DNA of 64,000 bases from contig NZ_FUWJ01000001.1 of the NCBI RefSeq assembly GCF_900167455.1, positions 806,001 through 870,000 on the forward strand, in the 5' to 3' direction. Of this stretch, positions 31,176 through 33,239 are shown piece after piece. Below the pieces are notes generated by a model. That model was not told the DNA's origin and did not search any database. It saw nothing but the letters and a program-made list of their open reading frames with translations. The translations under genes were made by a program, and so were the position numbers. The stretch's first letter is position 1. Each line of letters starts with the position of its first letter. The DNA comes from Enhydrobacter aerosaccus. Lineage in GTDB: Bacteria; Pseudomonadota; Alphaproteobacteria; Reyranellales; Reyranellaceae.

Positions 31176-32165
31176 ATGGACGAAACCGGTCGCCACATCG
31201 TGACCTTCGACGCTGCCGCCGCCGGCGAACGGCTCGACCGCGCGCTGGCGGCTGCTTTGCCGATCCTCACGCGCAGCCGCGTGAAGGCGTTGATCGAAGG
31301 CCGCCGGGTGGCGCTGGCGGGCGGCGGGACGATAGAAGAGCCGTCCCGCAAGGTCAAAACGGGCGAGTGTTTCATTGTCGACATTCCGGAGCCCGAACCG
31401 GCCGAGCCGCTCCCTCAGGCGCGCGATCTCGATATCCTCTACGAGGACGACGACCTGCTGGTGCTCGACAAGCCGGCAGGCTTGGTCGTCCATCCCGCGC
31501 CGGGCAATCCGGACAATACCCTGGTCAATGCGCTGCTGGCTCATTGCGGCGAGAGTCTGTCGGGGATCGGCGGCGTGCGGCGGCCCGGTATCGTCCACCG
31601 TCTCGACAAGGATACGTCCGGCGTCATGGTGGTGGCCAAGAACGACGCCGCTCACCACGCTCTTTCCAAGCTGTTCGCCGCCCATGACCTGACCCGGGTC
31701 TACCATGCCCTTGTCTGGGGCGTTCCCAGCCCGCGGCAGGGGACAATCGAGGCCGCCATCGGGCGTCATCCGGTCGATCGCAAGCGCATGGCCGTGCGCC
31801 GGACCAGCGGCAAGCGGGCGCTCACGGACTATTGGGTCGAGAAGAGCTTCGGGCCGCCGCTCGCGCCGTGGGCGAGCCTGGTAGCGGCCAAACTGCATAC
31901 CGGCCGGACCCATCAGGTCAGGGTGCATTTCTCCCATATCGGCTGCCCGGTGGTCGGCGATCCGGTCTATGGCCGCAGCCGCAGCGGTGCTCGGAACACC
32001 TCACTGCCGGCATCGTTGAAAAGCTTTGGACGGCAGGCGTTGCATGCCGCCCTCCTGGAATTCCGCCATCCGAGGACCGGGCGGGAGATGACCTTCGCCA
32101 CAGAATTGCCGCAAGACATGCGGAAGCTGGTCGCGGAAATGAACGGCGTTAAGTTACCGGACTGA
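31176..32165 (+). CDS. rluD: RluA-family 23S rRNA pseudouridine synthase (RluD-like)
   Basis: A 329-residue enzyme. An N-terminal S4 RNA-binding domain (GERLDRALAAALPILTRSRVKALIEGRRV, residues about 13-65) is followed by the catalytic domain. The signature HRLDKDTSGVMVVAKN holds the catalytic aspartate, Asp144; LHTGRTHQVRVHFSHIGCPVVGDPVYG is the second hallmark. RluD makes the pseudouridines of helix 69 in 23S rRNA. It is located directly before rpoH, an order common in alphaproteobacteria. The ATG was chosen because the longer frame runs through the antisense side of neighbouring genes. Confidence 0.92.
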   Translation: MDETGRHIVTFDAAAAGERLDRALAAALPILTRSRVKALIEGRRVALAGGGTIEEPSRKVKTGECFIVDIPEPEPAEPLPQARDLDILYEDDDLLVLDKPAGLVVHPAPGNPDNTLVNALLAHCGESLSGIGGVRRPGIVHRLDKDTSGVMVVAKNDAAHHALSKLFAAHDLTRVYHALVWGVPSPRQGTIEAAIGRHPVDRKRMAVRRTSGKRALTDYWVEKSFGPPLAPWASLVAAKLHTGRTHQVRVHFSHIGCPVVGDPVYGRSRSGARNTSLPASLKSFGRQALHAALLEFRHPRTGREMTFATELPQDMRKLVAEMNGVKLPD

Positions 32166-32176
32166 TTGTTGAGGGG

Positions 32177-32219
32177 ATTAGTCGGAAATAGGGGTTGACC
32201 CAACCGCTATCCGACTAAT
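32177..32219. repeat. long inverted repeat (hairpin) between rluD and rpoH
   Basis: ATTAGTCGGA (32177-32186) and TCCGACTAAT (32210-32219) are perfect 10-base arms. After a two-base bulge the stem continues with TAGGGGTTG against CAACCGCTA (8 of 9 pairs), leaving only a three-base loop. It begins 12 bases after the rluD stop and lacks a following T-run, so it is not a standard terminator for either strand. A TTGACC hexamer (32195-32200) that could be the rpoH -35 box lies at the apex. It may be an mRNA structure, a terminator without a tract, or an operator. Confidence 0.6.
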
Positions 32220-32229
32220 AGACTCAGGT

Positions 32230-32256
32230 TTAGCAGTCGACGGGCGAGAGTGCTAA
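32230..32256 (+). promoter_or_regulatory. CIRCE element (HrcA operator) upstream of rpoH
   Basis: TTAGCAGTC, nine bases, then GAGTGCTAA: this matches the CIRCE consensus (TTAGCACTC-N9-GAGTGCTAA) at 17 of 18 positions, with exactly the canonical spacer. The palindrome extends to 11-base arms (GTTTAGCAGTC and GAGTGCTAAAC, 32228-32258). It ends 32 bases before the rpoH start codon, where HrcA binding would block transcription initiation or early elongation. CIRCE is normally found before groESL, dnaK or hrcA itself; its position before the sigma-32 gene is notable. Confidence 0.88.
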
Positions 32257-32288
32257 ACGCCCGTTCAGGCAGAAAGGGGGAGTCCCCA

Positions 32289-33239
32289 ATGAGTACTGTA
32301 TCCGCAAACCTTCCCGCCCTGCCGTCGGCCTTGTCGCCGGAGGGTAACCTTTCGCGCTATCTGCAGGAGATCCGCAAGTTTCCCCTGCTGGAGCCGCAGG
32401 AAGAATTCATGCTCGCCAAGCGCTGGCGGGAACATGGTGATTCCCAGGCTGCGCACAAGCTCGTGACCAGCCATTTGCGCCTCGTGGCCAAGATCGCCAT
32501 GGGTTACCGGGGCTATGGGCTGCCGGTGGCCGAGCTGATCTCGGAGGGCAATGTCGGCATGATGCAGGCGGTCAAGCGGTTCGACCCGGACCGCGGCTTC
32601 CGCCTGGCCACCTACGCCATGTGGTGGATTCGTGCCTCGATCCAGGAATACATCCTGCACAGCTGGTCGCTCGTGAAGATGGGCACCACCGCCGCGCAGA
32701 AGAAGCTGTTCTTCAACCTGCGCAAGCTCAAGGGCCAGATGCAGGCCATCGAGGAGGGCGACCTGTCGCCCGAGCAGGTATCCAAGATCGCCACCCGCCT
32801 CGGCGTTCCCGAGGAGGAGGTGGTGAACATGAACCGCCGCCTGGCGGCTCCGGACAGTTCGCTCAACGCCGCGGTGAAAGCCGAGGGCGACATGGAGTGG
32901 CAGGACTGGCTGGTCGACGATTCTCCTAACCAGGAGGCGCGGCTGGCCGACAACCAGGAGCTGGGCCAGCGCAAGCACATGCTGGCGCTGGCGCTGAAGC
33001 AGCTTACGGACCGCGAGCGGCACATCATCATCGAGCGCCGACTGGTGGACGAGCCGCAGACGCTCGAGGACCTGTCCGCTAAATACGGCATCAGCCGCGA
33101 GCGTGTGCGCCAGATCGAGGTGCGGGCCTTCGACAAGCTGCAGAAGGCGATGAAGAACATGGTGGTCGAGGCCGCCGCCGAGTCGTCACGCAAGGCCGAA
33201 GCCCATTCCAAGGCCGAGGCGCAGGCTGGGACGCGTTAG
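32289..33239 (+). CDS. rpoH: RNA polymerase sigma-32 factor (heat shock) RpoH
   Basis: A 316-residue sigma factor. Region 2 reads AHKLVTSHLRLVAKIAMGYRGYGLP.AELISEGNVGMMQAVKRFDP, with the -10-binding FRLATYAMWWIRASIQEYILHSWSLVK. The RpoH-specific box QKKLFFNLRKLK is present, and region 4.2 (LEDLSAKYGISRERVRQIEVRAFDKLQKAM) binds the -35. It directs heat-shock transcription. The ATG at 32289 follows a G-rich ribosome-binding stretch, and a CIRCE element precedes it, suggesting HrcA control. The Ala/Lys/Glu-rich C-terminal tail (AESSRKAEAHSKAEAQAG) extends past region 4. Confidence 0.95.
   Translation: MSTVSANLPALPSALSPEGNLSRYLQEIRKFPLLEPQEEFMLAKRWREHGDSQAAHKLVTSHLRLVAKIAMGYRGYGLPVAELISEGNVGMMQAVKRFDPDRGFRLATYAMWWIRASIQEYILHSWSLVKMGTTAAQKKLFFNLRKLKGQMQAIEEGDLSPEQVSKIATRLGVPEEEVVNMNRRLAAPDSSLNAAVKAEGDMEWQDWLVDDSPNQEARLADNQELGQRKHMLALALKQLTDRERHIIIERRLVDEPQTLEDLSAKYGISRERVRQIEVRAFDKLQKAMKNMVVEAAAESSRKAEAHSKAEAQAGTR

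Follow-up and report, generated by a model that had tools for sequence, protein, structure and literature searches.

A conserved CIRCE operator before the sigma-32 gene rpoH in Reyranella and its probable control by HrcA

Is the gene for the heat-shock sigma factor itself a target of the heat-shock repressor HrcA in some Alphaproteobacteria? The question is raised by a stretch of 64,000 nucleotides from Enhydrobacter aerosaccus (hereafter the window), in which a CIRCE element, the HrcA operator, lies upstream of rpoH. The original prediction described this element as matching CIRCE at 17 of 18 positions with a nine-base spacer, 32 bases before rpoH, and a pattern search confirmed the description.

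The rpoH locus and its CIRCE site

We searched with the consensus TTAGCACTC-N9-GAGTGCTAA, requiring a spacer of exactly 9 bases and using the reversed pattern as a control. The site at 32230-32256 reads TTAGCAGTC-GACGGGCGA-GAGTGCTAA and departs from the consensus only by a C7-to-G change in the left arm (CACTC to CAGTC); 32 bases separate its end from the rpoH ATG at 32289. It is the only match in the window when up to 3 mismatches are allowed, and 100 dinucleotide shuffles of the window gave none. The features of the locus are as follows.

32195..32200, + strand: -35 hexamer TTGACC of the predicted rpoH promoter (consensus scan; pairwise identity 0.973 in 24 Reyranella sequences)
32219..32224, + strand: -10 hexamer TAGACT of the predicted promoter, after an 18-base spacer (consensus scan; pairwise identity 0.825)
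32230..32238, + strand: CIRCE left arm TTAGCAGTC, with C7 to G (from the sequence; same arm in 24/24 genomes and 28/28 aligned sequences)
32239..32247, + strand: nine-base CIRCE spacer, variable (pattern search; pairwise identity 0.668)
32248..32256, + strand: CIRCE right arm GAGTGCTAA, perfect consensus (identical in 27/28 sequences; pairwise identity 0.991)
32257..32267, + strand: conserved stretch ACGCCCGTTCA directly after CIRCE (pairwise identity 0.852)
32271..32282, + strand: likely ribosome-binding site AGAAAGGGGGAG (read from the sequence; purine runs at a similar place in relatives)
32289..33239, + strand: rpoH, heat-shock sigma factor sigma-32, 316 aa (TIGR02392)

The identity of the gene is clear: its product (P0001) scores 370.5 bits against the TIGR02392 equivalog model, above the cut-off of 323.1, and it is the only rpoH in the genome, the sole other protein match being 30% identical. 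Ranked by RpoH sequence, the six closest named loci are 89 to 93% identical; three are labelled Reyranella and the others Proteobacteria, Enhydrobacter and Rhodospirillales. G023, of the same genus, shares its operator leader with Reyranella sp. L036, and we assign our genome to Reyranella. The preceding gene encodes a pseudouridine synthase domain (PF00849), and the following gene, on the opposite strand, a NicO nickel transporter.

The predicted promoter is of sigma-70 type, and only 0.1 sites of the form TTGACC-18-TAGACT are expected in shuffles. Its -10 hexamer reads TAGAGT in 13 of the 24 Reyranella sequences (which include our genome), and the spacer between the two hexamers has a pairwise identity of only 0.542. 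CIRCE begins 6 bases past the predicted -10, so transcription would be expected to start just inside the left arm, and the operator thus lies at or just after the predicted promoter of its gene. Separately, a 17-base inverted repeat (82%), with arms at 32170-32186 and 32210-32226, flanks the -35 hexamer and overlaps the -10. Copies of AGTCGGA/TCCGACT recur at these places in many, though not all, relatives, and the repeat at 32170-32226 is possibly a second operator. We make no claim for a second operator built of AGTCGGA repeats at the promoter, because three copies are present in 3 of the 24 sequences and none in another 3.

Conservation in Reyranella and distribution across the class

The original prediction proposed scanning relatives for CIRCE before rpoH, and the element turned out to be present in every Reyranella genome in which we found rpoH (24 of 24). 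The set comprised 25 genomes including our own; the remaining one, G016, which is 77% complete, gave no rpoH match at E 1e-40. Among the 24 sequences the left arm has a pairwise identity of 1.00 and the right arm is almost as invariant, making the arms the most conserved part of the region that we measured. Identity is high in the 11 bases after CIRCE and drops to 0.328 in the next 11. This alignment was anchored on the left arm; in an unanchored scan, too, the best CIRCE match before each of the 24 rpoH genes carries the identical left arm. Arms that are kept while the spacer and later leader are free to vary are the pattern of a selected operator. Similarly, the CAGTC departure is retained in all 28 aligned sequences (the 24 genomes and four further named contigs), so we regard it as a kept feature and not as noise. 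With invariant arms beside drifting flanks across 24 genomes, and no match in 100 shuffles, it is scarcely credible that the element is a chance match or an unselected relic. The stretch at 32257-32267 is complementary to the CIRCE spacer in RNA, with covariation that is at most weak.

Outside the genus the arrangement is sparse. Among 80 named loci, the six from the Reyranella clade carry CIRCE at one mismatch before rpoH, and among the other 74 only L066 has the element (3 mismatches to the strict consensus), the next best having 6; the reversed control never fell below 4 mismatches at the 80 loci. We also drew 144 genomes from the class, found RpoH in 134, and for 121 of these (G000, G015, G031 and G035 included) examined the DNA upstream of the best copy, leaving out the other 13. 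Second rpoH copies were read in G076, G106 and G132, most others being left out, and the regions from G047, G082 and G123 were shorter than the rest. CIRCE at 3 or fewer mismatches precedes rpoH in 8 of the 121 genomes, from seven families. In G000, G015, G035, G049, G104, G130 and G133 the site has a single mismatch; in G108 it has three and a poor left arm, which makes it borderline. None of 120 regions matched the reversed control at this threshold (best, 4 mismatches). All of the CIRCE-bearing genomes in this draw have hrcA. Counting only non-Reyranella genomes, 6 of the 119 read have the site (including the borderline G108), in six families. In G025, the one genome from a sister family, hrcA is present and rpoH has no CIRCE before it (best, 7 mismatches). 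The low count of 6 in 119, together with the absence in G025, indicates that rpoH can in general be controlled without CIRCE.

By eye, a -10-like hexamer lies at CIRCE or within 5 bases of it in 5 of the 7 other lineages (the six genomes of the class draw and L066), and is less clear in G104 and G133. A quick RpoH tree of 91 rows, built to count the origins of CIRCE at rpoH and containing a very long L254 branch, requires at least 8 changes of label, of which well-supported branches force only 2.

HrcA, its other predicted targets and the CAGTC arm

The original prediction would have failed in a genome without hrcA. Our genome (6.77 Mb) has one hrcA gene, scoring 299.5 bits against TIGR00331 (cut-off 197.2), and hrcA was found in all 31 other genomes tested. 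A search of the whole genome at up to 3 mismatches gave 4 CIRCE sites, versus 1 match to the reversed control. The rpoH site is the closest of the four to the strict consensus. Two of the others precede groESL (2 mismatches) and a second groESL operon (3 mismatches, 116 bases before groES; L115:1384-1527); the last, with 3 mismatches, lies between the genes for a DUF1178 protein and a methyltransferase. No CIRCE precedes hrcA itself: across 800 bases covering its start and the DNA upstream, the best match has 8 mismatches.

The DUF1178 site is conserved, with intact cores, in all seven loci read (L116:1501-1527 in our genome, and L289-L294 at 701-727), and in four of these a divergently oriented methyltransferase gene flanks it on the opposite side. 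The DUF1178 gene is a probable further HrcA target in Reyranella. The operators of the first groESL operon (groESL1) have intact cores in all 15 Reyranella loci fetched, a count biased by the 2-mismatch search from which these loci came. The same 15 loci share, by eye, a CCTTGAC motif upstream of CIRCE and a -10 reading CCTAAAT in 12, and CCTACAT, CTTACAT and CTTAAAT in one each. By comparison with the alphaproteobacterial consensus, and judging by eye, we take this promoter to be sigma-32-like.

Some further sites are recorded here as observations. In G016 a groESL operon whose GroES is 58% like that of our genome has a CAGTC-type CIRCE (L120:1544-1570); the assembly has 6% contamination, and this divergent operon is perhaps foreign DNA. 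CIRCE-like sites at L271:1574-1600 (G049) and L002:1501-1527 (G031) have no groES or groEL match in the surrounding DNA fetched, and are either other HrcA targets or chance matches.

The CAGTC arm is not confined to rpoH. Among 72 CIRCE sites listed from the class, with rpoH sites excluded, 10 show C7 to G in a single arm, and two of these arms carry a second, neighbouring change as well. Nine of the ten lie before groESL; the DNA fetched around the tenth (G049) gave no groESL. With groESL operators from 9 further alphaproteobacterial genomes sharing the change, it is an operator form in use, and judging from these sequences HrcA probably accepts an arm of this kind. We considered whether broken cores are commoner at rpoH operators, and found them in 4 of 7 rpoH lineages versus 18 of the 72 other class sites listed, a difference that is not significant (one-sided Fisher p 0.09, with the three-mismatch site of G108 left out).

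A proposed link between HrcA and sigma-32

The best explanation of these observations, and one that we consider very likely, is that HrcA represses rpoH through an operator placed on its predicted transcription start, so that the HrcA and sigma-32 heat-shock systems are probably wired together in Reyranella. In the unstressed cell, HrcA folded by GroESL would bind the rpoH CIRCE and hold down the sigma-70-type promoter. On heating, unfolded proteins would draw off GroESL, HrcA would become inactive and rpoH would be derepressed; the extra sigma-32 would then activate its genes, probably including groESL1 with its sigma-32-like promoter and CIRCE, and the new GroESL would refold HrcA and close the loop. 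HrcA binding, repression, heat induction and the sigma-32 type of the groESL1 promoter are all steps that we infer, and the GroESL-HrcA loop is carried over by analogy from Caulobacter and Bacillus, GroESL being described as keeping HrcA active in Caulobacter (PMC8119881) and B. subtilis (PMC10212131). With groESL under HrcA both directly and via sigma-32, the arrangement would be a feed-forward loop. The original prediction had the two systems wired in series; its link from HrcA to rpoH has gained genomic support, but a series is an incomplete picture, since groESL has both a CIRCE and a sigma-32-like promoter. Several observations weigh against HrcA repression: the core mismatch in the left arm of every Reyranella sequence, which could weaken the action of HrcA, the scarcity of the site in the 119 non-Reyranella genomes read, its absence in G025, and the published behaviour of RpoH in E. 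coli and Sinorhizobium meliloti described below.

The first of these leads to the alternative that HrcA binds the rpoH site only weakly and has a mild restraining effect, sigma-32 responding to heat mainly through control of its translation, its stability and its binding by chaperones, as in E. coli, where, in the account of PMC5745026, sigma-32 synthesis is modulated mainly at translation. We regard this as a real possibility, if a doubtful one; it overlaps with the explanation that we prefer and denies only the size of the effect. It is favoured by the off-consensus left-arm core in all 28 sequences, set beside the intact groESL1 cores from their biased search, while the use of the same change in groESL operators elsewhere and the exceptional conservation of the arms argue against it. 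Heat responses of RpoH differ within the class: PMC5745026 describes transcriptional up-regulation upon heat shock in several alphaproteobacteria, in favour of repression by HrcA, and an RpoH1 that stays constant on heating in S. meliloti, which speaks against it.

A quite improbable alternative is that the element works mainly at the RNA level, with a structure in the 5' leader that affects stability or serves as a thermometer, formed through pairing of the CIRCE arms or through a stem between the spacer and the bases downstream. Single sequences do fold into either the CIRCE hairpin or such a stem, and the 11 bases after CIRCE are conserved. We counted pairing for the stem in two registers over 28 sequences (25 distinct). 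In the first register 91.0% of cells pair, with slid controls at 33 to 50.5%; of 500 shuffles, 20 pair as fully and 47 match the covariation score. In the second register 79.5% pair and nothing exceeds the shuffles. In neither register are pairs changed on both sides more often than in shuffles, and the same holds for the types of pair so changed; we keep the stem as a minor rival. RNAalifold returns the CIRCE hairpin as its consensus structure, in which covariation contributes a term of only 0.04, and the conserved arm mismatch would weaken that hairpin in RNA. A search of 31900-32600 against Rfam gave no match at E up to 1.

Returning to repression by HrcA, a broader scheme can be imagined, which we think rather unlikely: that in Alphaproteobacteria rpoH came under HrcA on several separate occasions, each time through an operator at the start point and often one in which a single arm is imperfect, giving graded operators that are weaker at rpoH and stronger at groESL and DUF1178. 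If so, sigma-32 would be the first to be released as free GroESL falls, and GroESL would serve as a single thermometer for both heat-shock systems. The conserved asymmetric arm raises the question of whether genes are released in an order fixed by operator strength.

As a kind, CIRCE before rpoH is already known, and the wiring is not new in bacteria: a 2004 study predicted a site of this type in Geobacter sulfurreducens, located at -51 relative to the rpoH start codon (PMC545781). As in Reyranella, a TTAGCACTC-N9-GAGTGCTAA-type operator precedes the sigma-32 gene in a genome with hrcA. Unlike Reyranella, G. sulfurreducens is treated there as a deltaproteobacterium and its CIRCE arms are printed as perfect consensus; it is the only genome for which the CIRCE table of that paper lists rpoH. 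In the titles and abstract openings listed by searches of the open-access literature we found no report of CIRCE before rpoH in Alphaproteobacteria, and our claim of novelty is limited to that class and that literature.

Within the class, Caulobacter crescentus shares with Reyranella the repressor family, the operator type and the folding of HrcA by GroESL, whereas the HrcA/CIRCE target described in PMC8119881 is groESL, not rpoH; the seven rpoH upstream regions from the Caulobacter clade among the named loci (L096, L103, L104, L106, L107, L111 and L113) have no CIRCE (best, 7 mismatches). In rhizobia, HrcA/CIRCE and sigma-32 overlap on groESL as they appear to do in Reyranella, but the excerpt of PMC3989490 does not describe rpoH as an HrcA target. 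Both systems, with CIRCE at groESL, agree with the remark in the original prediction that HrcA/CIRCE usually represses groESL or dnaK. Where these published accounts describe HrcA and sigma-32 as separate inputs to groESL in Alphaproteobacteria, Reyranella offers a simple case, open to testing, in which the negative system, HrcA, would be linked at transcription to the positive one, sigma-32, and because the site is genus-wide there and sparse elsewhere, relatives with and without the link can be compared.
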